This document shows positions 13 to 13,403 of a DNA stretch of 64,000 nt, piece by piece (the stretch's first letter is position 1; each line of letters begins with the position of its first letter). Source of the DNA: Gammaproteobacteria bacterium (GTDB lineage: Bacteria; Pseudomonadota; Gammaproteobacteria; SZUA-229); NCBI GenBank assembly GCA_015488885.1, contig WFMW01000070.1, positions 1-64,000 of the forward strand, read 5' to 3'. The notes beneath the pieces are model-generated. The model saw only the letters and a program-made list of their open reading frames with translations. It had not been told where the DNA came from and made no database searches. Position numbers and translations under genes: made by a program.

Positions 13-654
13 TTGAAATATACGATACGAATATTAATATGGGGATTTATACTATTTCAGCTATCTGATGGTGTATCATTTGCCAGAGAACTAAGCAGTG
101 TGCAAATTTCCCAGGCTTACTACAAGTCCTATAATTATGAGAAATCAGGTAATTATGTTGATGCAATAAAAGCCCTTCAGATTGTTTATCATGAATATAG
201 CAAGACCTATGGTGTGAATAATCGTCTTGGCTATTTATATCGCCTGCGGCATTTGTATAAAAATGCCGAAAGTCATTATAAACAGGCAATTACGGCACTG
301 CCCGACTCGTTAACACCAAAACTTGGTCTGATGTATGTTTATCTGCAGGCGCAGAATTATTCAGCAGCAAGTAAACTCGGCTATCAGATTCTAAGTATTG
401 ATTATTATAATTATTATGGAAATTTACGTCTGGCATTTGTGTTACGTAAGATGGAGAAAACTGACCTTGCAGAAAAGATACTGGTTAAAATGCTAATACG
501 CTATCCTGGTGATACACTTTATCTAACTGAACTTGGATTACTAAATTTTCAACAGAAGGATATGATAAAAACCAGAGCCATTATGAACGAAGTTCTTACC
601 CTTGATCCTGAAAACGTTGACGCAAAGTCCATTCTTCTGTCACTGGAAAAATAA
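13..654 (+). CDS. Secreted TPR-repeat protein (YaiO-type TPR module)
   Basis: A 213-residue protein starting at TTG. Residues 1-25 form a signal peptide (KYTIR, hydrophobic core, cleavage after SFA), so TTG is a credible start, although the frame is open to the left edge and an upstream start cannot be excluded. The mature part is built of TPR-like helical pairs rich in Tyr and Leu (for example NAESHYKQAITALPD, AEKILVKMLIRYPGDTLYL, then LDPENVDAKSIL). Such TPR domains precede the beta-barrel in YaiO, PgaA and PelB-type export proteins; here the barrel is a separate gene five positions downstream. Only 44 bp separate it from the decarboxylase gene. Periplasmic location and a role in assembling or exporting the cluster product are inferred. 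The TPR assignment is good; the function is unknown. Confidence 0.7.
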   Translation: MKYTIRILIWGFILFQLSDGVSFARELSSVQISQAYYKSYNYEKSGNYVDAIKALQIVYHEYSKTYGVNNRLGYLYRLRHLYKNAESHYKQAITALPDSLTPKLGLMYVYLQAQNYSAASKLGYQILSIDYYNYYGNLRLAFVLRKMEKTDLAEKILVKMLIRYPGDTLYLTELGLLNFQQKDMIKTRAIMNEVLTLDPENVDAKSILLSLEK

Positions 655-698
655 TCGTAACAGGACAGCTTTTTCATAGAAAAATACCAACAGCTATA

Positions 699-3362
699 GT
701 GAACGAGCCTATTGTGAATAAAACTGAACCTGTATTTGATCTGGAAAATTATCGCATTAAATGCTGGCGGTTAATTTATGCTGCTTCTTTAAAGGAAGAT
801 TCTCCGCTGATGGCGGATAAACTGAATGAAATTAGTCGAATTGAACGTTACTGGGCCTATCCTGGTGCAGCTACCATTCAGCGACTACAATATTATATTT
901 CAACCACCGATTTCAATGCATTCAAATTATTATGTCGAAACCTGCTGTTTGCATTAGAAAATAAAACTTTTCTGGCAGGTGAATTTATACCTTTTAGTAC
1001 AAATCTTGATAATCTTGATAAACCTCAAAGCCAGTTATTGCATTCAGGTTATGCTGATAAAGTGAGAAGGAAGGGTCTAAAACCCTGTTTTGAGGTGCTT
1101 ATTATTCATCCCGATCCCAGAGGATATGAAGCATTATATCGAAACTCGCTTTCAAGTCATATTAGCTATTATGATCAGTCACTTTATGATATTTTTTTTG
1201 TGGATAATTATCAGGATGCAGTCATTGCAATTTTATCAAATCCTTCTATCCAGGCATGTTTATATCTGGATAACTTTAGCCTGACATCTGCTGATGCAGC
1301 TGAATTTGAATACGAATTTTCACCCTTTCTTCAGGGTATTGAAAACAATAGTGAAAACATAACGGTTTCACTTAAAAAGCATTTGGCCTGTCTGCGACCT
1401 GATCTTGACCATTATTATATTTGTGAAGCTTATGCTTCTGATTCATATGTTAAAAATTTTTCACGAATTATCTATACCCAAAGTCTGAGTTTTTTTGCAG
1501 ATATTCATCATCATATACTAAGCGGTATCGAGCAGCGTTTTTCAACGCCGTTTTTCGATGCTTTGCGTGCCTACGCAAAACGACCCAAAGCTGCCTTCCA
1601 TGCTTTACCTATATCTCAGGGTCAGTCTATTCTGTCATCATACTGGATCAAGGATATTGCAGAATTTTATGGTGAGGGAATATTTTCTGCAGAAACGTCA
1701 TCTACCCTGGGTGGAATGGATTCTATCATGGATCCGAAAGGCTCAATATCGCAGGCACAGAACAAGGCAGCCAGACTGTTTCGAGCGGAAAAAACATTTT
1801 TTATTACCAATGGAACCACCACCGCAAATAAAATTGTTATGCAGGCTAATCTGCATCCAGATGATCTTGTGCTGGTATCTTCTGACTGTCATAAATCTAT
1901 TCCCTATTCAATTTTGCTTTCAGGAGCAAAACCTGTTTTTCTGGAGACTTATCCCCTTGATCAGTATGATTTATACGGCTGCGTTACCCTGGAACGTATC
2001 AAGCAGGTTTTGCTTGAATTAAAAAAGCAGAATCAGTTACATCGTGTAAAACAGATTACTTTGACAAATTCAACCTTCGATGGTGTTATCTATGATGTGA
2101 AACGTTATATGATGGATATTTTATCGATAAAACCGGATATTATATTTCACTGGGATGAAGCATGGTTCTCATCGGCATATTTCAACCCGCTTTACAAAGG
2201 AAAAACCGCAATGAGTGCGGCAAATTCCCTGAATGAGATGCTCCATGATGAAGTATACCGTACAATATATAACAACTGGAAACAGAATGTTGATCTGGAT
2301 AATGAAGATTTTCTGTTGCATAATGATCTGTACCCTGATCCTGACCTGTTTATGGTCAGGGTTTATGCCACACAATCCATCCATAAAACATTAACGGCAT
2401 TCAGACAGGCATCCATGCTACATGTCCATGATTGTCTGTTTGTCGAAGATGACTTTTATGAAGCATACCGAACCCATACTTCAACATCGCCGAATTATCA
2501 GATTATTGCTTCACTGGATTTTTCCCGTCGGCAGATGAGTCTGGAAGGTTACGCATTGGTAAAAAATTCACTGAAGCTTGCCTGGGAATTACGTAATGCC
2601 ATCAAACAATCAACACAATTGCAAAAATACTTTACGATACTTGAAGAAAAACATCTTGTGCCTGATGAATATTGTTATACCGAAGTAAATGATCAGTCAT
2701 TCTTAATGTTTTATCCTGAACTGTTCAGGTATTACAGACAGCAGAGATTTTCTGTAGATCCAACACATATTACTCTGGATATTAGTGCAACGGGTATTGA
2801 TGGTCCCAATTTTCGTCAAATGCTAATGACTCAATATGATATACAGGTAAATAAAACTTCGCATAATACTGTTTTGTTTATTATCAATATTGGCGTTAAT
2901 GCTGATGGTATTCGGTATCTTCTTGAATCATTGCATCATATTGCCAGCAAACTTGATGCGTCACCAGTCCTGATAAAGCAGAACAAATATGTAGTCAATC
3001 TTCCACTTACACGTCATTACCACAAATTATTTGTCGAGGTTCAATCGGGAAAATATTCTGATTTTCAGGCTGTTGATATCAGAAAAGCCTATTATGCAGG
3101 CCTCGAATCAGATAATGTTGAATTCATACCATTATCGGATAAGCTGATGAAACAGGTTATGAATAATACAAAGATTACTTCAGCCGGTTTTGTTACGCCT
3201 TACCCACCCGGGTTTCCCGTTATCGTTCCTGGTCAACTGATTAGCTATGACATGTTACTCTATCTGCAGAATATACGGATTAAGGAAATTCATGGTTATC
3301 ATGCTAATAAGGGGCTGAAAATATTTACCGAGACATTTTTACAGGGTAATTTACATGACTGA
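699..3362 (+). CDS. Orn/Lys/Arg decarboxylase-family PLP enzyme with N-terminal extension
   Basis: An 887-residue fold-type I PLP enzyme of the basic amino acid decarboxylase family (relatives AdiA, CadA, SpeC). The Schiff-base lysine is K563 in QSIHKTLTAFRQASMLHV, and the aspartate that pairs with the PLP ring nitrogen is D486 in HWDEAW. The PLP-phosphate region FITNGTTTANKIV and the DCHKS loop are also intact. It is longer than the usual 710-760 residues: about 130 extra N-terminal residues (WRLIYAA, RYWAYPG) precede the wing domain and are not part of the E. coli enzymes. The start is a GTG without a strong ribosome binding site. The 3' end overlaps the ATP-grasp gene by 8 bp (ATGACTGA), so the two are translationally coupled. 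The substrate cannot be read from sequence; a diamine or other amine is the likely product. Confidence 0.88.
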   Translation: MNEPIVNKTEPVFDLENYRIKCWRLIYAASLKEDSPLMADKLNEISRIERYWAYPGAATIQRLQYYISTTDFNAFKLLCRNLLFALENKTFLAGEFIPFSTNLDNLDKPQSQLLHSGYADKVRRKGLKPCFEVLIIHPDPRGYEALYRNSLSSHISYYDQSLYDIFFVDNYQDAVIAILSNPSIQACLYLDNFSLTSADAAEFEYEFSPFLQGIENNSENITVSLKKHLACLRPDLDHYYICEAYASDSYVKNFSRIIYTQSLSFFADIHHHILSGIEQRFSTPFFDALRAYAKRPKAAFHALPISQGQSILSSYWIKDIAEFYGEGIFSAETSSTLGGMDSIMDPKGSISQAQNKAARLFRAEKTFFITNGTTTANKIVMQANLHPDDLVLVSSDCHKSIPYSILLSGAKPVFLETYPLDQYDLYGCVTLERIKQVLLELKKQNQLHRVKQITLTNSTFDGVIYDVKRYMMDILSIKPDIIFHWDEAWFSSAYFNPLYKGKTAMSAANSLNEMLHDEVYRTIYNNWKQNVDLDNEDFLLHNDLYPDPDLFMVRVYATQSIHKTLTAFRQASMLHVHDCLFVEDDFYEAYRTHTSTSPNYQIIASLDFSRRQMSLEGYALVKNSLKLAWELRNAIKQSTQLQKYFTILEEKHLVPDEYCYTEVNDQSFLMFYPELFRYYRQQRFSVDPTHITLDISATGIDGPNFRQMLMTQYDIQVNKTSHNTVLFIINIGVNADGIRYLLESLHHIASKLDASPVLIKQNKYVVNLPLTRHYHKLFVEVQSGKYSDFQAVDIRKAYYAGLESDNVEFIPLSDKLMKQVMNNTKITSAGFVTPYPPGFPVIVPGQLISYDMLLYLQNIRIKEIHGYHANKGLKIFTETFLQGNLHD

Positions 3363-4863
3363 AACAACACTTCACTCCATAGAAGATATACAGCGTTATT
3401 TTATAAATAACCGAACAATCTATTATTTTATAAGTGCGACCAATTTTAATCTTATGTTTGTATCGGACTGGGTAAAAAACTGGATTAACGTTAATTTTAT
3501 TGACTGTTATAATGGTAGAAACAAAAGCGTGATGATCGCTGAATATAATGAGGCACCGGTTTTTAATGATATTGAATCAATTAATCAGTTTTTACTCGGT
3601 AATAAAACAATAGTCGAACATATAAAACAAAGTCAGCAAAAAGGCTATCAAACCAATGCTATGTTCCTGTTTTATGACAAAGAGCTGGAGAAACTGGTTG
3701 ATTCTTTAAAAATGAACCTTGTTATGCCACCCTATACTCTGGTAAAGCTGGTTGATAATAAAATTACAACAACTGAAATAGGTAATAGTGTTGATGTGCC
3801 CAGTGTACCGAATGCGCTGGTTAAAATAAAAAGTTATACCCAGTTGAGGCAGACTATCGAAAACAACGATCTGGGTGATGAAGTGGTTATCCAGACTGCT
3901 TACGGTGATTCAGGAAAAACCACCTTCTTTATTTCCAGTGAAGAAGATTATCATGCAGTCGCTGACAGCATTGAAGCAGAAGATAAAGTCAAGGTAATGA
4001 AACGCATCCAGTGCCAGCAGGTCGCCATGGAAGCCTGTGCAACACGTCAGGGAACCTTTATCGGCCCCATCCTGACTGAAATCATTGGTCATCCCAGGCT
4101 AACACCTTACCAGGGAGGGTGGTGTGGTAATGACATTAATCCTGATATTTTTGATGCTCAAACACAGAACACGATGTATGACTATACGCAACGAATTGGT
4201 CAGGCATTATATCAAAAGGGTTACAGAGGATATTTTGAAGTAGATTACCTGATTGAGACAGTTGATGCTCATTCACAGGTTTACCTTGGTGAAATTAATC
4301 CACGAATTACCGGGATCAGTGCGATTACAAATATGTCGGCATGCTGTAATCAGATGATCCCTCTATTTCTGTTTCATTTGCTTGAATTTAGTAAGGTTAA
4401 ATTTGATCTCGACCCGGATTGGTTTAATCAGCAGGTAAAGGATTTTTCACATCCGCCATTTGGTCAGCTTGTTTTTAAATATACGCAAAAAGAATTAAAG
4501 ATTGTCACTAGAATACCCGATACTGGTATCTATACAATGAAGGATAATAAGCTATATTTTGTTCGTCATTCAAATAATCCCCGCTTTCTGGACAGGAATG
4601 AGATTTTTATCCTACGAATTCTCAGTGTTGATGAATATGTATATAAAGGGGCTGATATTCTTGTTTTATTCGCTAATAAGCAACTTAAGGGTGATGATAA
4701 TAAGCTTACTGAAATTGCTGAATCACTTATTGGTTCAGTTGAAAACTCGGTTGATTATCGAGCGCTTAGCGATGAGGAATATCAGCTGACGCAACGTTAT
4801 GGTAAACGTGCCGGGTTTAAGTCTTCTATTGATACGGGGCCAGAAAGTAAAACGTATGTGTAA
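3355..4863 (+). CDS. ATP-grasp ligase (biotin-carboxylase-like / amide ligase)
   Basis: A 502-residue ATP-grasp enzyme. The family loop YGDSGKTTFF sits at residues 183-192, with K188 in the nucleotide-binding position, and the Mg-ATP ligand motif GEINPRITG has E313, N315 and R317. Residues 1-120 form an N-terminal substrate-side domain that I do not recognise. ATP-grasp enzymes activate a carboxylate as acyl phosphate and join it to an amine or thiol; there is no biotin carboxyl carrier gene nearby, so amide ligation is more likely than carboxylation. It overlaps the decarboxylase gene by 8 bp and ends 6 bp before the C45-type hydrolase, which implies one enzymatic unit. No signal peptide, so it is cytoplasmic. 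The substrates are unknown. Confidence 0.82.
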   Translation: MTETTLHSIEDIQRYFINNRTIYYFISATNFNLMFVSDWVKNWINVNFIDCYNGRNKSVMIAEYNEAPVFNDIESINQFLLGNKTIVEHIKQSQQKGYQTNAMFLFYDKELEKLVDSLKMNLVMPPYTLVKLVDNKITTTEIGNSVDVPSVPNALVKIKSYTQLRQTIENNDLGDEVVIQTAYGDSGKTTFFISSEEDYHAVADSIEAEDKVKVMKRIQCQQVAMEACATRQGTFIGPILTEIIGHPRLTPYQGGWCGNDINPDIFDAQTQNTMYDYTQRIGQALYQKGYRGYFEVDYLIETVDAHSQVYLGEINPRITGISAITNMSACCNQMIPLFLFHLLEFSKVKFDLDPDWFNQQVKDFSHPPFGQLVFKYTQKELKIVTRIPDTGIYTMKDNKLYFVRHSNNPRFLDRNEIFILRILSVDEYVYKGADILVLFANKQLKGDDNKLTEIAESLIGSVENSVDYRALSDEEYQLTQRYGKRAGFKSSIDTGPESKTYV

Positions 4864-4869
4864 TGTCGA

Positions 4870-5844
4870 ATGAAAAATACAAAGCTCGTACAATTTGTCC
4901 ATGAAGATCAACCTGGTGATAAATGGCTGGCATTTTATAAACAGGTTATTCCAGGCTACAGAAAATGGTTTTTGAATGAAGGTGAATTTGGCAGACCGAA
5001 TTACCAGGCCTGTCATAATGCAATAAAAAAATATATGCCCGAACTTGAGTCATTCTGGTTGTCATTGATTGACTTGACAGAGGCCAATGACCTTGAAGCA
5101 AGATTACTCAGTTTTTACTGTCCCTCTCCCTATGTCAGTGGTTGTAGCCAGGCTGTGTGGTCGAAGTACAGCCCTGTTCTGGTTCGTAATTATGACTATG
5201 CTCTGGATTTGTGTGAAATGAGGATACTAAAATCACACTGGTTTGATACGGATGTGATTGCTTCGACAGACTGTCTATGGGGCGTGCTTGATGGAATGAA
5301 TCAGCATGGCTTAATTGTATCGTTAGCCTTCGGTGGCACTCGTGATCGAGGCGTTGGCTTTGGAATCACGGTTATTCTTCGATATATTCTTGAGTTTTGC
5401 CAGACTACACAGCAGGCTGTCGAGGTTCTGCAGAGGGTTCCTTCCCATATGGCCTATAATGTGACTATTCTTGATGCAGGTTATAATGTGAGTACGGTAG
5501 AAATAAATCCAGGTACAATTACCCGGGTATCACATATACCGATAGCAGTTAATCATCAGGGCGACTATGAACTAACCAATTATGCGGCTTTTTCTCGATC
5601 CTACGAACGAAAGAAATTTCTTATCGACAAGCTTTATGACCCGTTGATCAATATAGAAAGTTTTATTGACAGTTTTGAATATAAACCATTGTTTGCCAAT
5701 AACTACGAGGAAGGCTTTGGTACGCTCTATACATCCGTTTACAATCCAGCACTTATGGCAACAGAATATCGATGGCCTTATGGTGTACGACGTTATAAAT
5801 CGTTTATCAATTTTGAAGATGAAGCATTTCAGGTCACTTATTAA
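4870..5844 (+). CDS. C45/AAT-like Ntn-hydrolase (self-processing amide hydrolase or acyltransferase)
   Basis: A 324-residue protein with the signature of the acyl-CoA:6-APA acyltransferase / linear amide C-N hydrolase group. Gly91-Cys92-Ser93 is followed by VLVRNYDY, the RNxDY motif that lines the active site, and then by STDCLWGVLDGMNQHGL. In this superfamily the precursor is cut between Gly and Cys so that Cys becomes the N-terminal nucleophile; the Gly91-Cys92 bond is the expected site, leaving a 91-residue propeptide chain. There is no signal peptide. Members hydrolyse or transfer amide-linked acyl groups, which fits a neighbour that forms amides. It follows the ATP-grasp gene by 6 bp and precedes the barrel gene by 19 bp. 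The substrate is unknown. Confidence 0.8.
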   Translation: MKNTKLVQFVHEDQPGDKWLAFYKQVIPGYRKWFLNEGEFGRPNYQACHNAIKKYMPELESFWLSLIDLTEANDLEARLLSFYCPSPYVSGCSQAVWSKYSPVLVRNYDYALDLCEMRILKSHWFDTDVIASTDCLWGVLDGMNQHGLIVSLAFGGTRDRGVGFGITVILRYILEFCQTTQQAVEVLQRVPSHMAYNVTILDAGYNVSTVEINPGTITRVSHIPIAVNHQGDYELTNYAAFSRSYERKKFLIDKLYDPLINIESFIDSFEYKPLFANNYEEGFGTLYTSVYNPALMATEYRWPYGVRRYKSFINFEDEAFQVTY

Positions 5845-5863
5845 CTATCTATACAGGCTATCT

Positions 5864-6778
5864 ATGAAACTAATATATAAAATCATTGTTCTATTTGTGT
5901 TTCTTCTGAGTATATTATCAAGCCAATCTGTTTTTGCCGGTGATATCTGGTATGTTTCTGCGACAGCAAGTGTTATGCCTGGAAACTATTCAGGTTCAAA
6001 GCAACGCAACAGTTTGCTATCCAGCAGTATTATATTAAACGCTGATTATCTAGACGCTTTCAGTTTTGCTGTTGCATACAATAATTTTAGAATTAATTTT
6101 AAACCGGTTAATGGTATCAGCTCGGACATTAATCAGGATCAATTCGCAGGCCGAATGCAATATCATTTTTTTAGTGATACTTTTAAGGGGAAGCTGACCG
6201 CACAACTTGTCGCCTATGATATTTCAAACGATGATATCAACAAACTCACCGATAATGTTTCTATAATATCGCCAGGTTTTTTCTACCAGAACGTCAATCG
6301 AAGTCTGTCTCTTGGTATTGAATATGTACGATCGAAATATTCCAGTAATAATGGTCTTGTGATGACGCAATGGACGCCTTCGTTTGGTTTTGGCTTTAAT
6401 AATAAAGCAGACTGGTTAGGTTTTAAAGCATTTTTAATTGATTCAAGTGATCGTAGACTTTCACAGGGTGAGGATGCCATGAAATCGCTGGATATTAAGT
6501 GGACTCACTGGCTGGCACCAGACGCATTACTTAATATTAACCATTTTTTTATAAGTGTACTTGCAGGACAACGTATTTTTGCAGTTGATAATGATGCCTT
6601 TTCTGTCTATAACCTTGCAGATGTTCAGAAAGGTTCGTTGCTTGCAGGCGTCACATGGGATCTTAATTATAATATTGATGTTACTGCATTAGCAGGTGTT
6701 GATCGATATGAAAATAAATCCATTAGTAACTCATATAATCAGCAATATCTGTACCTCGGTCTGACAAAACATTGGTAA
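5864..6778 (+). CDS. Outer-membrane beta-barrel protein, YaiO family
   Basis: A 304-residue protein. I chose the ATG at 5864 because it gives a clean signal peptide (MKLIYKIIVLFVFLLS, cleavage after SVFA, residue 25); the frame is open upstream to 5666 but that part overlaps the preceding hydrolase gene. The mature chain alternates polar and hydrophobic residues in short beta-strands (GDIWYVSATASV, LSLGIEYVRSKYS, YLYLGLTKHW) and ends in an aromatic residue, as outer-membrane barrels do. YaiO proteins carry TPRs and barrel in one chain; here the TPR parts are separate genes on both sides, so this looks like a split YaiO-type export pore. It is 24 bp upstream of the second TPR gene. Confidence 0.72.
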   Translation: MKLIYKIIVLFVFLLSILSSQSVFAGDIWYVSATASVMPGNYSGSKQRNSLLSSSIILNADYLDAFSFAVAYNNFRINFKPVNGISSDINQDQFAGRMQYHFFSDTFKGKLTAQLVAYDISNDDINKLTDNVSIISPGFFYQNVNRSLSLGIEYVRSKYSSNNGLVMTQWTPSFGFGFNNKADWLGFKAFLIDSSDRRLSQGEDAMKSLDIKWTHWLAPDALLNINHFFISVLAGQRIFAVDNDAFSVYNLADVQKGSLLAGVTWDLNYNIDVTALAGVDRYENKSISNSYNQQYLYLGLTKHW

Positions 6779-6802
6779 TGTAAAAATAATCAGGATAAAA
6801 CT

Positions 6803-7411
6803 ATGTCTCAGAAAGTAAAGTATCTATTCACAATAATATTATTTTTGTTCTCCTTTTCTTCATATTCAGCTGAGTCTGTATGGAAGGAATCCTACAGTTT
6901 GCAGGCGAAAGGCGATTATGAAAAGGCAATAACGGTTTTAGTAAAAGCTAATGCCAATGGTGAATATGCATTATTACGTTATGCCTATTTGAATTATCTG
7001 CAGGGTAACTACAACACGGCTATCAATAAATATAAACAAGCAATAAAATTAGATCCTGCCTCCATGGATGCAAAGTTGGGCGTTACCTTACCCCTGCTGG
7101 CGCAAAAACGCTGGCGCCAGGTTAAAAAATATACGCTGCAGGTACTCCAGCAATCTCACTGGAATTATACGGCACATCTTCGTCTAATGATGGCAGAGCA
7201 GGGAATGCGTAGCTGGGATGATCTTATTACCCATGCTAAACAACTGGCTAAAGTTTATCCGGCAGCTGCAATACCACTGGTCTATCTTGCTCGTGCATAC
7301 GCCTGGAAAGGAAAGGTGAGAAATGCAGTGACTATCTACAGAAAGGTATTAAAAAGAATACCTGATCATATTGAGGCCACTCAGTATATCGCGAAAAATA
7401 GCGGACATTGA
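6803..7411 (+). CDS. Secreted TPR-repeat protein
   Basis: A 202-residue protein with a signal peptide (residues 1-23, cleavage after SYSA) and several TPR motifs: GDYEKAITVLVKANANGEYALL, GNYNTAINKYKQAIKLDPASMDAKL, VYPAAAIPLVYLARAYAWKGKVRNAVTIYRKVL. It is probably periplasmic and likely partners with the beta-barrel encoded just before it. The first gene of the cluster is a similar but not identical secreted TPR protein, so the system has two scaffolds. It ends only 4 bp before the MerR-family regulator, which places that regulator in the same transcription unit. Its exact role is unknown. Confidence 0.7.
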   Translation: MSQKVKYLFTIILFLFSFSSYSAESVWKESYSLQAKGDYEKAITVLVKANANGEYALLRYAYLNYLQGNYNTAINKYKQAIKLDPASMDAKLGVTLPLLAQKRWRQVKKYTLQVLQQSHWNYTAHLRLMMAEQGMRSWDDLITHAKQLAKVYPAAAIPLVYLARAYAWKGKVRNAVTIYRKVLKRIPDHIEATQYIAKNSGH

Positions 7412-7415
7412 GTTA

Positions 7416-7832
7416 ATGTCGGAAAAAGAAAATAAAACACAAACGTATAAGATTAGTGAAGTTGCTGATACAACCGGCCTCAGTGCGGATACATTACGTT
7501 ATTATGAAAAAATCGGTTTGTTAAAAAAAATTGGCCGCGCTCCGTCAGGGGTACGTTTGTACAATAGACAGGATCTGTCCCGTCTGCGTTTTATACAACG
7601 GGCCAAAACGATGAATTTTTCATTGCTTGAGATAGAAAAGTTATTGCAGATGCGGGAAAACCCCGGCCATGCAAAAAACAGTGTACGTCAGCTTAGCAGA
7701 GACAAGCTAACAGAAGTTGAAACACATATAAAAACACTTACTACGTTACAGAAAGAACTAACACTGTTAATTAATCTATGCACCGGATCAAAACAGGGAT
7801 GTCCGATTATTGATAATATGGATGAAAAATAG
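7416..7832 (+). CDS. MerR-family metal-responsive regulator
   Basis: A 138-residue protein; start chosen at ATG 7416, where the family N-terminus begins (YKISEVADTTGLSADTLRYYEKIGLL, winged helix at about residues 11-35). A long dimerisation helix follows, then a metal-binding loop C122-TGSKQG-C129 followed by PIIDNM, like the C-terminal loop of CueR and PbrR (CueR has a seven-residue spacer, here six). The extra cysteine used by divalent-ion sensors such as ZntR at the start of the dimer helix is not seen (GHAKNSVRQLS), which hints at a monovalent-type sensor; this is inference. It lies 4 bp after the TPR gene and about 160 bp before a MerR-type operator that fronts the HMA gene. Confidence 0.85.
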   Translation: MSEKENKTQTYKISEVADTTGLSADTLRYYEKIGLLKKIGRAPSGVRLYNRQDLSRLRFIQRAKTMNFSLLEIEKLLQMRENPGHAKNSVRQLSRDKLTEVETHIKTLTTLQKELTLLINLCTGSKQGCPIIDNMDEK

Positions 7833-7940
7833 ACAGCGATTTTTAATTTCCAGCTTTCTCATTAAAAAACCTGAATACCTGTTTTTATCTTTGTTTATCC
7901 GCGTTCATCGGTGGAAATTATTCTTTTTCTGCCTGTAATC

Positions 7941-7955
7941 TGACAATTATTGTCA
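7941..7955. promoter_or_regulatory. 15-bp perfect inverted repeat upstream of the HMA gene
   Basis: TGACAAT-T-ATTGTCA is a perfect dyad with a single central base, about 36 bp upstream of the MerR-type operator. It may be a second regulator site; nothing else identifies the protein that would bind it. Confidence 0.35.
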
Positions 7956-7990
7956 TTTTCCAAAAAAAAATTCGAAAAAAACAAATCTTT

Positions 7991-8021
7991 TTGAACCTGG
8001 AGTTAACTCCATGTTGTCACA
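7991..8021 (+). promoter_or_regulatory. MerR-type promoter/operator for the HMA gene
   Basis: A -35-like TTGAAC (7991-7996) is followed by the perfect dyad TGGAGTTAACTCCA (7998-8011), which extends to 7994-8015 with one mismatched pair. In MerR-family promoters the dyad fills an overlong 19-20 bp spacer; here a 19-bp spacer would put the -10 at about 8016-8021, which is a poor match to consensus, as expected for an activator-dependent promoter. The regulator encoded just upstream is the obvious candidate. A strong Shine-Dalgarno GGAGG (8043-8047) follows before the HMA start at 8055. Confidence 0.65.
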
Positions 8022-8054
8022 AGCACCAGCAAGCTAAATATTGGAGGTAATAAT

Positions 8055-8342
8055 ATGAAGAAACTAATAATTATTTCATTTCTGATTTTGACGTGGGCAA
8101 ATACCGTACTGGCCGCAGGCAACCAGTACCAGTTACAGGTGGCCGGTCTGGCCTGTCCATTTTGCGCCTATGGGATTGAAAAGAAATTAAGTTCAATCAA
8201 AGGGGTTGAGAATACTCAGGTGGATGTAGCCAGTGGCGTGGTCATCGTTACCATGGCGGAAGGTGTTGAATTAAAAGAAAAGGCAGCACGTGAAAAAGTA
8301 AAGAAGGCGGGGTTTAGTTTACGTTCATTTAGTCGAAAATAA
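8055..8342 (+). CDS. Periplasmic heavy-metal-associated (HMA) domain protein
   Basis: A 95-residue protein with a signal peptide (residues 1-20, cleavage near VLAA) and one HMA fold: YQLQVAGLACPFC with the metal-binding pair C34 and C37, then GIEKKLSSIKGVENTQVDVASG and a final beta-strand. It has the size and layout of MerP-like periplasmic metal carriers, but the motif is GLACPFC rather than the MerP GMTCAAC. The start is set by a GGAGG site 7 bp upstream. The gene overlaps the next one by a single base (TAATG), so the pair is coupled. It sits behind a MerR-type operator, so metal-induced expression is likely; the metal is not determined. Confidence 0.85.
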   Translation: MKKLIIISFLILTWANTVLAAGNQYQLQVAGLACPFCAYGIEKKLSSIKGVENTQVDVASGVVIVTMAEGVELKEKAAREKVKKAGFSLRSFSRK

Positions 8343-9283
8343 TGAGATTAAAAATGGCTACACTGCAACAGTTAAAAACATCGAGCCAGCCGATGCGGGT
8401 TTTGTCATTCGTTTCCTTGAGTATTATCGGAATGAGTAATCAAGCCCATAGTGCACCCATTACTTTTAATACGGCTTTGCCTGTGGCCGAAGATGAATAC
8501 CTTGTACGTGAACAGTTGATTGTTAATCAGTCGGGTAATGATCCTGGTGTTACGGATAGGGATCGTACAGCGAAAGCTGCGGTATCGGTATTAGGTTATG
8601 GCGTTAATCATAAGCTGGCAATCTTTGCTGTGTTGCCTTACCAGAATATTGACCTGAAAGTGACTGTTGGTGGCAAACGCATAACACGATCTGCCTCAGG
8701 TTTTGGCGACCTCACAATATTTGGCCGTTATACATGGATTCAGCGTGACATGATGGGTAGTAATTTTCGCGTTGCGCCCTTTGCCGGGATTAAAGCACCG
8801 ACAGGCAAAGATAATGAAAGAGACAGTCTGGGTCTTCTGCCTCCAGCCGTGCAAGTTGGCTCAGGCTCCTGGGATCCGCTTGCCGGTGTTGTTATGACTT
8901 ACCAGACACTGGCTTATCAACTTGACAGTCAGTTCAGCTACCAGATTAAAAATGAGGCAAATGGTTTCGAAGCGGGTGATGTCGCACGCTTTGATGCTTC
9001 ACTGCAGTATCGTTTATTGCCCCGGGAATTCACTGGTGGACTGCCTGACTTCCTTTATGGTGTGGTTGAAGTCAATCTTGTCAACCAGCAGAAAAATCGT
9101 ATTAATGGTAATACTGAACCTGACTCAGGCGGGACGCGCCTGTTTCTGACACCGGGCATACAGTACGTCACCAAACGCTGGATTGGTGAAGCGGCGCTGC
9201 AAATTCCAGTAGTACAGAATCTGAATGGAACAGCACTGGAAAATGATTACATTGGCCGACTGAGCGTACGATTTAATTTTTAA
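8342..9283 (+). CDS. Outer-membrane barrel of the MetA/transporter (PF13557-like) type
   Basis: A 313-residue exported protein. The N-terminus has a hydrophobic stretch ending at AHSAPITF. The mature chain shows repeated beta-hairpins: VLGYGVNHKLAIFAVLPYQ, GFGDLTIFGRYTW, VAPFAGIKAPTGKDNERD, ALQYRLLPREF-like segments and a terminal RLSVRFNF ending in Phe. The motif GDLTIFGRYTW and the following PTG loop are typical of the outer-membrane protein family named after MetA of phenol degradation, many members of which have no known substrate. The start overlaps the HMA stop by one base; an in-frame ATG at 8354 is an alternative. Its place between a metal-binding periplasmic protein and a beta-propeller suggests metal-linked transport, by inference. 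Confidence 0.7.
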   Translation: MRLKMATLQQLKTSSQPMRVLSFVSLSIIGMSNQAHSAPITFNTALPVAEDEYLVREQLIVNQSGNDPGVTDRDRTAKAAVSVLGYGVNHKLAIFAVLPYQNIDLKVTVGGKRITRSASGFGDLTIFGRYTWIQRDMMGSNFRVAPFAGIKAPTGKDNERDSLGLLPPAVQVGSGSWDPLAGVVMTYQTLAYQLDSQFSYQIKNEANGFEAGDVARFDASLQYRLLPREFTGGLPDFLYGVVEVNLVNQQKNRINGNTEPDSGGTRLFLTPGIQYVTKRWIGEAALQIPVVQNLNGTALENDYIGRLSVRFNF

Positions 9284-9304: not shown

Positions 9305-10288
9305 ATGAACAGTAAAAATATCAAAAAGTATCTGTATCGGCTTTTCTTAGTAGTAATAGCTTTGATAGTGCTTATCTGGTTGTTCTTTATTCCCTCATCA
9401 AAAGAGCCAGACTATGTGTTTGATATGAGCTGGGGAACAGCGGGGAAGGCTGCGGGCGAATTTCACGATCCTACCGGCATTGCCGTATTTAAAAATGAAG
9501 TGTTTGTCAGTGATGCGCGCAATGCACGGATACAGGTTTTTGATTTGAATGGTCATTTTAAACGCCAGTTTGGATCAAAAGGGGATGGCCCGGGTCAACT
9601 TGGTCGGCCAATGAATCTGACGATAGCGAATAACGAATTGTATGTTGCCGATTACTGGAATGATCGTATTGAGGTTTTTGGGCTTGATGGCAAGCCGCAT
9701 CGTGATATTGGTCATACTGGTACCGGTCCGGGTGAGTTTAGTTCACCTGGCGGGGTTGCGGTTGCTAACAACGGTGATCTGTATGTGGCAGACTTTTACG
9801 GCCAGCGTATACAGCACCTTGATGCTAATGGAACGTTTATTGGACAATGGGGTAACACAGGTAAAATTGGTATTACGGCTGGAAAATTTAATTACCCCAC
9901 TGATGTCGCCATAGCAAAAAACGGGATGATCTATGTTGCAGATGGTTACAATGATCGAATACAGGTTTTTAATGCTAATGGTGAATTTGTGCGTAAGTGG
10001 GGTGGGCCTTTTGCAAGCAATATCTGGGGACCGTTTAATGGCTGGTTTGCTACTGTGACAAGTATTAACTTTGACAAAAAAGATAATGTGTATGTGGCAG
10101 ATTTTTATAACAACCGTATTCAAAAATTCTCACCAGAGGGCGTTTTTCTGACATCACTGGGCCATCGTGGAACAGGTCAAGGTGAATTTGAAAAAGCAAT
10201 TGCGGTCGCTGTTGCGGATGATGGATCAGTATTTGCTGTCGATTTTGCTAATAACCGAATTCAAAAGTGGCGACAGAAACAGGAGTAG
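9305..10288 (+). CDS. Membrane-anchored NHL-repeat beta-propeller protein
   Basis: A 327-residue protein with one N-terminal membrane anchor (about residues 10-30, LFLVVIALIVLIWLFFI) followed by about six NHL repeats, each with the pattern G-x-F-x-x-P-x-G-I/V-A and V-x-D-x-x-N-x-R-I-Q-x-F (for example VFVSDARNARIQVF, LYVADYWNDRIEVF, IYVADGYNDRIQVF, VYVADFYNNRIQKF). The propeller is predicted to face the periplasm. Such domains bind partners or small ligands; no catalytic residues stand out. It starts 21 bp after the outer-membrane barrel gene and ends the metal operon. Immediately downstream begins the group II intron and cassette region. Confidence 0.85.
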   Translation: MNSKNIKKYLYRLFLVVIALIVLIWLFFIPSSKEPDYVFDMSWGTAGKAAGEFHDPTGIAVFKNEVFVSDARNARIQVFDLNGHFKRQFGSKGDGPGQLGRPMNLTIANNELYVADYWNDRIEVFGLDGKPHRDIGHTGTGPGEFSSPGGVAVANNGDLYVADFYGQRIQHLDANGTFIGQWGNTGKIGITAGKFNYPTDVAIAKNGMIYVADGYNDRIQVFNANGEFVRKWGGPFASNIWGPFNGWFATVTSINFDKKDNVYVADFYNNRIQKFSPEGVFLTSLGHRGTGQGEFEKAIAVAVADDGSVFAVDFANNRIQKWRQKQE

Positions 10289-10342: not shown

Positions 10343-10762
10343 TGGCACAGCAAAACAGTACACAAGTTTAAACAAAAGGTGCGCGAACTCACCAACCGAA
10401 ACTGGGGTGTGAGTATGCAGTATTAATTATATAAGATCACACTTTATCTCAGAGGCTGGATTAACTATTACGGTATCGCAAACGCCTACCAAAAATGCAT
10501 TGATCTAGATCACAGGATAAGGCGGCGTGTACGCATGTGCTACTGGCGTCAGTGGCGCAAGCCCCGTACAAAAGTAGCTAAACTGTTGAAGCTTGGTGTA
10601 TCTACAAAATGGGCAGTGACTTGTGGCAGCACAAGAAAAGGTCCATGGCGAAGTTCAAAAACACCCGGTATTCAACAGGCGTTGAGCAATAACTGTTTGA
10701 AAGAGGAAGGTCTCTTCTCATTGATGGAGGGTTGGATAAAGGTTCATTATCCTAACGGATAA
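10343..10762 (+). pseudogene. C-terminal remnant of a group II intron reverse transcriptase/maturase
   Basis: Translated from 10343, the frame reads FKQKVRELTNRNWGVSMQY, then an in-frame TAA, then LYLRGWINYYGIANAYQ and RIRRRVRMCYWRQWRKPRTK up to the stop at 10760. These are the maturase (GIIM) and C-terminal parts of group II intron-encoded proteins. The whole reverse-transcriptase domain is missing and the internal stop confirms decay. The intron domain V-VI follows at 10770-10840. Confidence 0.85.
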
Positions 10763-12023: not shown

Positions 12024-12049
12024 GTTTGATGATTTTTTTTTCACACCGG

Positions 12050-12990
12050 GTAGGTCAGGGTCTTACGACCCGTTCCCCCCTAAGAACTGTACGCGATAGT
12101 TTCCCATCATACAGCTCAAGCCTTTCTTAAGCCGATCACTTACGACCCGGCTGCTTATTTGTAATAAAGTTATTTCCATTGCGTAATAGTACACAAGGAA
12201 AAAGCCGCGTGCCAGTATTGTTTAGGTGTTTTCCACGGTACCTTGTCAATGCCCGGCGTTTTGGCTCCCTTATTACTCATAATCATTTTGACAGCCAGTA
12301 ATTTGGCTGACTTTGAGCAGCTTAAGATCCGTTGTAAGGCTTTTACCTTACCCCAGCGCTTTTCCTGCACAGCCTTTGCGATACGCAATTGCATACGATA
12401 GACATTACGACGAATCTGCTTCCAGTTTACATGGTTCCAGTTGTGCGTAGTGTTTGAAGCTGCACCAGCTACGATGGCTGTCATTTGCTTTTCTTCATAA
12501 AATCGTTTGGTTCAATTTATCTCGCAATGAAACACCGAATGGACGTGGGCACATTTTCATGTCGGGCAAAGTTTGAACCCGTATATCTTCCATTACAGAA
12601 AATCATTCGCTTTTTCCATCTTCTTATCGACGCATTGTCACCGGCACCCCTCACGGGCAGCTTTCTTCAGCCTTGAAGGACAATACGACATTGCCACGTT
12701 CTGCATATTTACCATTACGACTTACTTAGGTATTCGCTGTCTTGCGGTGATGCGGTGTCTGTGTATTGCCCACGTTATCAAACAATACCGGGATCACTTA
12801 CCTTTTGGTTACAGCCTGTCAGTGCTTTTGGCTGTTTGCAAGATAACGCAATGTCAACACGAATTCACTTGTGTTTACCGTATAAGTCTTTCCTTGCCCC
12901 CGACCGCTTTGCACTAGCAGTTCCGATCCACCTCACGGCTTCATCTTAACAGGGTACGTTGTCCCAAACGCTTTATACCCATTCCGTTTC
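12050..12990 (-). mobile_element. Group II intron with internal deletion (intron B)
   Basis: On the minus strand a 34-nt domain V hairpin (12117-12084, starting GAGCTGTATG and ending CGTACAGTTC) is followed by a domain VI-like hairpin ending GACCTACCCG near 12050, so this is the intron 3' end. The N-terminal piece of the intron protein (12170-12484) lies upstream, and the ORF-free stretch 12485-12990 is the probable 5' RNA (domains I-IV). The middle and C-terminal parts of the protein are deleted. The 5' boundary is not resolved; the coordinate is approximate. Domain V differs from that of introns A and C, so it is another intron type. Confidence 0.6.
12170..12484 (-). pseudogene. N-terminal remnant of a group II intron reverse transcriptase
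   Basis: A 104-codon frame. HVNWKQIRRNVYRMQLRIAK, KALQRILSCSKSAKLLAVK and NKGAKTPGIDKVPWKTP match the N-terminal domain (RVT_N) of group II intron proteins, which ends at the GxDG-like turn. The last 15 codons are unrelated because the frame runs across a deletion junction. The catalytic reverse-transcriptase core is absent, so it cannot be active. Confidence 0.8.
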
Positions 12991-13107
12991 GCATAGTTTG
13001 GTAGGAAACTGCTGACAGAACAGCAGGTTGAAAAATTTAATAAAATGTTAAAAAAAACTTTTAAACTTTATTAAACCTCAACAAATAAATATGCAACATC
13101 GTGTCGC

Positions 13108-13403
13108 AAATAACGCCCATGCTAACTTGCAGGCGCGTTTTCTGCGCCTGTCAATGTTGAGCTAATTGGTACGCCTAGCATGGGCGTGAACTAATGAGGT
13201 GAAAGTCCTCTGTTGCATCTCAATTTATCATACCCGACCGGGCTTAGATGAATTGGTGGTGTAATATAGTAGCCAGCACTGGAGTAATTGGGAGCTTATC
13301 GGCCTGATTATTTTAAACACTTTCAGGAACCGCCCTGTGCGGAGCCGCATGCAGGGTGGTGTGGGGAGGGCTGATTAGTAGTCAGCCCTTACCCGATTTA
13401 GCC
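13108..13403 (-). other. attC site split by intron C
   Basis: If bases 13169-13397 are removed, 13108-13168 joins 13398-13403 into a complete attC. On the minus strand: R'' GGCTAAC (13403-13398 plus 13168), AATTAGCTCAAC as the L'' side, a GC-rich inner stem (GGCGC/GCGCC, 13132-13149) with a 7-base loop, GTTAGCATGGGC on the L' side and R' GTTATTT (13114-13108). The R'' side closely resembles the well-known TAACAATTCGTTCAA start of class 1 integron attC sites. The junction lies at G/TTAGCC, the integrase cleavage position. Confidence 0.68.
13169..13397 (+). mobile_element. ORF-less deletion derivative of a group IIC-attC intron (intron C)
   Basis: The element starts with GTACGCCTAGCATGGGCGTG, then AGGTGAAAGTCCTC, a typical domain I beginning, and ends with domain V and VI hairpins (13327-13397) that are identical to those of intron A apart from one base. 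Nothing of the maturase gene is left: 229 bp replace the usual 2 kb. It sits in the bottom strand of the attC, opposite to the PIN/Phd cassette. It could only move if a maturase acted in trans. Confidence 0.65.

Follow-up and report, generated by a model that had tools for sequence, protein, structure and literature searches.

Analysis of a 64,000-nucleotide stretch of DNA from a gammaproteobacterium (SZUA-229; GenBank contig WFMW01000070.1, positions 1 to 64,000), referred to here as the window, revealed a gene cluster at its left end. The cluster encodes a decarboxylase, an ATP-grasp ligase candidate and a C45-type N-terminal nucleophile (Ntn) hydrolase together with secreted and putative outer-membrane proteins. 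A first-pass annotation of the sequence had described a six-gene cluster. All six open reading frames (ORFs) were present within positions 13 to 7411, including the 8-bp overlap and the 6-bp gap between the enzyme genes. The set proved to comprise seven genes, the first of which encodes a urea transporter (UT) domain fused to an M23 peptidase (UT-M23), and the start of the barrel gene had to be moved. This ORF had been listed from position 5666; a start scan refined its start to the ATG at 5864, which gives a signal peptide. The features of the window are as follows.

13 to 654, + strand: TPR1, secreted TPR protein, 213 amino acids (aa), TTG start; TPR family over the cut-off
699 to 3362, + strand: pyridoxal phosphate (PLP)-dependent fold-I decarboxylase of the OKR family, 887 aa; PF01276, 253 bits
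2385 to 2387, + strand: codon of the predicted PLP Schiff-base lysine K563 (S-I-H-K), invariant in 25/25; role taken from the OKR family
3355 to 4863, + strand: ATP-grasp amide-ligase candidate, 502 aa, NF005096/PRK06524 group, 473 bits; 8-bp overlap with the decarboxylase gene
4870 to 5844, + strand: C45 Ntn-hydrolase proenzyme, 324 aa; NF040521 149 bits, PF03417 114 bits; 6-bp gap to the ligase gene
5143 to 5145, + strand: codon of the predicted nucleophile Cys92 of C45, in the conserved C45 Gly-Cys site
5864 to 6778, + strand: outer-membrane beta-barrel candidate (OMP), 304 aa; signal peptide, C-terminal Trp, conservation
6803 to 7411, + strand: TPR2, secreted TPR protein, 202 aa; TPR family over the cut-off

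Base 1 of contig C70 is the first base of the window, which thus begins at a contig end. The end of contig C47 shares 96 identical bases with the window start and then enters an adaptor-like tail, CTGTCTCTTATACACATCT... (bases 13189-13215, untrimmed), which by eye we take to be a Nextera-type adaptor. The overlap and the tail indicate that the contig break is an assembly artefact and that the contigs can be joined over the 96 bases. The UT-M23 gene was first met upstream of the same genes in a relative (genome G035), and its homologue was then located at the C47 end (C47:10989-13061), where it ends 43 bp upstream of TPR1. This position points to an operon of at least seven genes. That UT-M23, TPR1, decarboxylase, ATP-grasp ligase, C45, barrel and TPR2 form one operon is, jointly with the whole pathway model set out below, a reading to which we give slightly better than even chances. 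Promoter and terminator scans returned matches about as frequently as in shuffled sequences.

To follow the three enzymes through the phylum, 399 genomes of Pseudomonadota were sampled, and the ligase family was counted at E values below 1e-100. The ligase was found in 11 genomes; 18 had the decarboxylase and 14 had C45. Each of the 11 ligase genomes encoded all three enzymes as near neighbours, and the hypergeometric probability of co-occurrence, uncorrected for kinship, was 4e-17 for ligase and decarboxylase and 4e-19 for ligase and C45. That the three enzymes form a conserved unit was thereby borne out, and the possibility raised in the first-pass annotation, that no other genome keeps them together, was removed. 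Wider sampling yielded 33 ligase loci, with C45 in 32 (the exception ends at a contig end) and the decarboxylase in 29. The trio is syntenic across Pseudomonadota, with copies in alpha-, beta- and gammaproteobacteria, and its gene order differs among lineages, which argues for selection for staying together rather than mere shared descent. The pairwise distances of the three proteins correlate (r 0.67-0.88), and none of 2000 permutations gave values as high. Chance proximity was therefore rejected for the trio.

The trio was also seen on Rhizobium leguminosarum plasmids (loci L070, L013, L047 and L046). It lies beside nifHDKEN in L070 and near Nif11-type genes for ribosomally synthesized and posttranslationally modified peptides in L046 and L047; the copies in L013 and L047 are broken. 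Trio genes are misannotated as "biotin carboxylase" and "peptidase" in alpha-, beta- and gammaproteobacteria, including on symbiotic plasmids by nif genes.

The decarboxylase scored 253 bits against PF01276 (OKR_DC_1; gathering score 27) and aligned with PDB entry 9n0o over residues 42-881 (E value 3e-175). Its CHKS, WDEAW and SxHKxL motifs are kept in 25/25 loci. Judged by the PF01276 score and the PLP residues, the protein is a member of the OKR (fold I) amino acid decarboxylase family. Standalone relatives occur beside AspT antiporters in rhizobia and Rhodobacter (L065, L066, L067 and L068). These four relatives form their own branch in the tree, and no ligase or C45 is annotated alongside them. 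The AspT-linked loci are candidate decarboxylase/antiporter systems, and the Phyllobacterium locus (L066) adjoins eutB and other ectoine-type genes.

In the ligase, residues K136, K213, E226, E242, D297, E313, N315 and R317, assigned to ATP and Mg binding, are invariant in 21/21 sequences, and on this conservation the protein is a member of the ATP-grasp superfamily. It scored 473 bits against NF005096, a model named "biotin carboxylase", which is under the curated cut-off of 684. Since seven genomes with the same trio pass this cut-off, the window ligase represents a divergent branch. In biotin carboxylases, the Glu of the Q-V-E-H motif, which follows E-x-N-x-R, is catalytic. The ligase motif E313-x-N-P-R-x-x-G-(I/A) carries Ile or Ala at this position in 21/21 sequences. 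No biotin carrier protein was found among the operon genes, and the AccC- and AccB-type matches of the host lie outside it, on contig C72. The name "biotin carboxylase" thus looks wrong for the ligase family, and this identity was rejected on the motif, the missing carrier and the host's own AccC.

C45 scored 149 bits against NF040521 (C45_proenzyme; cut-off 85) and 114 bits against PF03417. Residues G91, C92, R106, N107, D109 and N228 are invariant in 21/21 sequences. By its NF040521 score and Gly-Cys site, C45 is a member of the autoproteolytic acyltransferase/hydrolase family, and self-cleavage is predicted between G91 and C92. The first-pass annotation had regarded a ligase that binds a biotin carrier, paired with an inactive hydrolase, as fatal to its pathway; at the sequence level, the ligase motif, the lack of a carrier in the operon and the retained active-site residues point the other way.

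Two genomic contexts of the trio were distinguished. The decarboxylases from loci with envelope genes, including the window copy, form a single clade with support of 100/100 (the envelope clade). Loci of this clade carry UT-M23, TPR and barrel genes and no CN-hydrolase gene. Most of the loci that lack envelope genes have a CN-hydrolase gene adjacent to the trio (18 of the 33 ligase loci overall, none of them in the envelope clade); the CN-hydrolase was consequently rejected as a cassette member. The neighbours in the remaining loci include GabT (L010, L074 and L078), GabD (L075), aldehyde dehydrogenases, class III aminotransferases, oligopeptide importers and, in L080, an agmatinase-family gene. 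These neighbour-gene statistics are purely descriptive. In L012, L045 and L071, the ligase and C45 occur without the decarboxylase in the locus, beside a ketoarginine route that includes a 5-guanidino-2-oxopentanoate decarboxylase and an agmatinase-family enzyme. This replacement suggests that the decarboxylase may supply arginine-type carbon to the step that the ketoarginine route serves. A caution comes from Roseateles sp. XES5, the carrier of L012, in which the plasmid with this locus also encodes a decarboxylase relative at another site.

The UT domain of the fusion protein (C47:10989-13058) scored 197 bits against PF03253 (gathering score 25), and residues H354, D363, H438, H471 and H473 of the M23 domain are invariant. 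UT-M23 is the first gene in 5/5 envelope-clade loci that have upstream sequence, which come from three bacterial families. TPR1 has orthologues at the equivalent position in L048 (68%) and L004 (40%), TPR2 has orthologues in L003, L048 and L076, and OMP is conserved at the trio end in L003, L048, L050, L059, L060 and L076. The claim that the envelope genes are part of the system is supported by this shared order in relatives. No Pfam family matched OMP, whose standing as a barrel candidate is based on its signal peptide, C-terminal Trp and conservation. In Hydrogenovibrio (L004:5855-6757), a different secreted protein of 300 aa ending in Phe, perhaps another barrel, is encoded between UT-M23 and TPR1. 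Family searches, by which all host-genome checks were performed, detected no arginase-family enzyme, urease or urea carboxylase over the cut-off in the host. The UT permeant is therefore probably not urea imported for nitrogen, and urea use by UT was rejected for this host.

The link between envelope genes and enzymes is most strongly supported by two related genomes, G023 and G028 (loci L088 and L089), in which the ligase family is absent. Here, UT-M23 is accompanied by a barrel of 30% identity and by a TPR protein that shares 42% identity with TPR2. These envelope genes follow genes for an ATP-grasp enzyme like carbamoyl phosphate synthetase (CPS) and PylC and a fold-III PLP decarboxylase like FslC and LysA. 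The envelope module thus recurs with a different ATP-grasp enzyme and a decarboxylase of another fold. The FslC-like decarboxylase scored 228 bits, under the FslC cut-off, and matched PDB entry 7kh2 with an E value of 4e-58. In G023, a Ddl-like ATP-grasp gene and an asparaginase II gene lie 0.8 kb downstream. The arrangement is as follows (ORFs of GC-rich loci were called mechanically).

L088:6443-15736: second cassette type, with ATP-grasp (CPS/PylC-like), FslC-like decarboxylase, UT-M23, barrel, TPR, Ddl-like ATP-grasp and asparaginase II

The GC content of the window cassette is 0.378, compared to 0.440 in the rest of the window and 0.410-0.467 in other 7.4-kb window segments. The cassette of G035 likewise has a lower GC content than its flanks (0.445 versus 0.505), and the ligase occurs in 4 of 54 genomes of the window's family, a patchy distribution. 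The earlier proposal of transfer from AT-rich composition is partly supported by these two genomes of one family (f1) and by the patchiness; it does not extend to Hydrogenovibrio, where cassette and flanks have the same GC content, or to two loci of another family (f87; G138 and G166), where the cassette is richer in GC than its flanks. Horizontal spread of the cassette is likely. Judged by the annotated neighbours, the cassette is embedded among heavy-metal resistance genes. Genes for resistance-nodulation-division (RND) efflux, a metal P-type ATPase and a YHS protein lie upstream (G000, C47:483-10908), and genes for a MerR regulator, a heavy-metal-associated (HMA) protein and an outer-membrane protein lie downstream (window 7416-9283). 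Farther downstream, an NHL-repeat protein resembling ScyF is encoded at 9305-10288 (205 bits; cut-off 350). Three Rfam group II intron matches on both strands at 12045-13397 point to mobile elements in the vicinity. A reverse transcriptase remnant suspected by eye at 10520-10696 gave no Pfam match.

On the basis of these data, we propose, with confidence a little above even, a pathway that makes and breaks an amine conjugate and is coupled to an envelope channel. Linkage, intact catalytic residues, operon order and the recurrence of the envelope module with other enzymes are established for this model. We infer the amide chemistry, the substrate class, the permeant and the direction. In the proposed pathway, the cytosolic PLP decarboxylase would remove CO2 from a basic amino acid, most likely of the arginine/ornithine type, or from its conjugate. 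The ATP-grasp enzyme would activate a carboxylate as an acyl phosphate and join it to the amine. The C45 proenzyme would cut itself at Gly91-Cys92 and then hydrolyse or transfer the amide. The UT domain would form a pore in the inner membrane through which a small neutral nitrogen compound passes passively, the M23 domain would tie UT to the cell wall, and the barrel and TPR proteins would extend the path through the outer membrane. As in the FslC pathway, the order may also be reversed, with decarboxylation following ligation. A broader proposal, which we put forward tentatively and consider possible at somewhat under even chances, is that the cassette represents a new envelope-spanning metabolite system. 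In such a system, a UT pore and the wall-binding M23 domain fused to it would work with a barrel and TPR partners of their own and would serve a small nitrogen compound from a decarboxylase and ATP-grasp core that has been filled by different enzymes at least twice.

Several points weigh against the make-and-break model. The arginine link comes from neighbour genes of loci that lack the envelope module, and two of the loci (L054 and L055) lie in ectoine-degradation clusters instead. UT channels usually pass very small amides, so that a whole conjugate may not fit. The barrel nature and the strand number of OMP are predictions. A PDB sequence search found no close structure for the ligase or C45; profile matches of the ligase were to biotin carboxylase/CPS-type ATP-grasp enzymes and were weak. 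AlphaFold models of the ligase and C45, built from three sequences, were of low confidence (predicted local distance difference test [pLDDT] of 41 or 36 in the pair of runs).

Among the alternatives, we consider a catabolic protect-deprotect route unlikely. In such a route, an arginine-type amino acid would be decarboxylated, the amine masked by the ligase, much as PuuA uses glutamate, and oxidised by further enzymes, and gamma-aminobutyric acid (GABA) or a similar omega-amino acid freed by C45 in the manner of PuuD, the envelope proteins importing the starting material. The recurrent neighbours GabT, GabD, aldehyde dehydrogenases, class III aminotransferases, ureohydrolases and importers fit this route, and the enzyme classes match the arginine-to-succinate network of PMC7268258. 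However, no oxidase or aminotransferase lies in the window operon or recurs in other envelope-clade loci, the host lacks an arginase-family enzyme, and the neighbour counts are descriptive. We regard as improbable an excreted N-acyl-amine metallophore or similar compound, for which the ligase would act first, the conjugate would be decarboxylated, as by FslC with N-citrylornithine, and C45 would serve as acyltransferase or in metal release. The FslC-like decarboxylase of the second cassette type favours it, as does the position of the operon between the heavy-metal RND pump with the metal P-type ATPase and the MerR/HMA pair. None of the operon genes was identified as a siderophore synthetase, though, and the metal genes are not common to other envelope-clade loci, while other copies lie in amino acid catabolism loci.

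A decarboxylase-based acid stress or proton-motive system, with the remaining genes as accessories, is very improbable. UT proteins take part in acid resistance of some bacteria, and standalone relatives of the decarboxylase lie beside AspT antiporters, but those relatives form a separate branch lacking annotated ligase and C45, and the window operon has no antiporter. An ATP-consuming ligase also fits an energy-saving cycle poorly. We give next to no credence to a biotin-dependent carboxylase cluster, to which the NF005096 name and the weak PDB profile matches would point; the Ile or Ala in place of the catalytic Glu, the operon without a carrier and the AccC and AccB genes on C72 argue against it. 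The same negligible weight goes to unrelated genes that are neighbours by chance. The envelope genes are indeed absent from most trio loci, but the proximity of the trio in 11/11 genomes, the six- and seven-gene synteny elsewhere and the recurrence of the envelope set with another enzyme pair contradict it.

If the make-and-break model and its envelope channel are true, the UT-M23/barrel/TPR module represents a new role for urea transporter proteins, the host being unable to use urea by any of the routes checked. The occurrence of two nonhomologous enzyme sets beside one envelope module makes the biochemical question directly testable. A search of open-licence papers for this combination of genes or for UT-M23 fusions found no such system described; a description elsewhere is possible.

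Parts of the system resemble known ones. By the alignment with 9n0o, Rv2531c of Mycobacterium tuberculosis is a full-length homologue of the decarboxylase, N-terminal region included; on a long branch, its place in the tree is unresolved, outside the envelope clade. Its structure has been solved, with no activity assigned (PMC12910592). Through the window cassette, the Rv2531c decarboxylase family gains a testable partner set. The AspT/decarboxylase pairs hold the standalone relatives of the window decarboxylase, with an antiporter in place of the channel and no annotated ligase or C45. The second cassette resembles the FslC rhizoferrin pathway in its FslC-like decarboxylase, but this enzyme falls below the FslC cut-off and is accompanied by an ATP-grasp enzyme instead of a nonribosomal peptide synthetase-independent siderophore (NIS) synthetase. 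The exporters YaiO, PgaA and BcsC combine TPR and barrel proteins, as does the window operon, in which these are separate short proteins without a polysaccharide synthase; the TPR proteins scored 17.6 and 21.4 bits against the PgaA and BcsC models, far under the cut-offs (PgaA, 366.65), and fall outside these families. Penicillin acyltransferase and insect Tan belong to the same C45 family, for which the window protein exceeds the curated cut-off, and have the Gly-Cys processing site in common with it. In contrast to them, the window C45 is bacterial, has no visible signal peptide and lies in a fixed operon with a ligase and a decarboxylase. In the Puu pathway, PuuA (gamma-glutamylputrescine synthetase) conjugates an amine with glutamate using ATP, the hydrolase PuuD frees it, and GabT and GabD follow. 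This sequence of ATP-driven amine conjugation and amide hydrolysis is like that of the proposed pathway, but PuuA resembles glutamine synthetase and PuuD class I amidotransferases, and neither family occurs in the window operon. In the glutathionylspermidine synthetase/amidase (Gss) of Escherichia coli, an ATP-grasp ligase makes a polyamine amide that a cysteine amidase can break again, a pairing like the one proposed for the window ligase and C45. Gss unites both activities in a single polypeptide, its amidase is of the CHAP type and its ATP-grasp belongs to another branch, and it lacks a decarboxylase and an envelope module, whereas in the window the two functions would be divided between separate proteins, and the hydrolase is of the C45 type.

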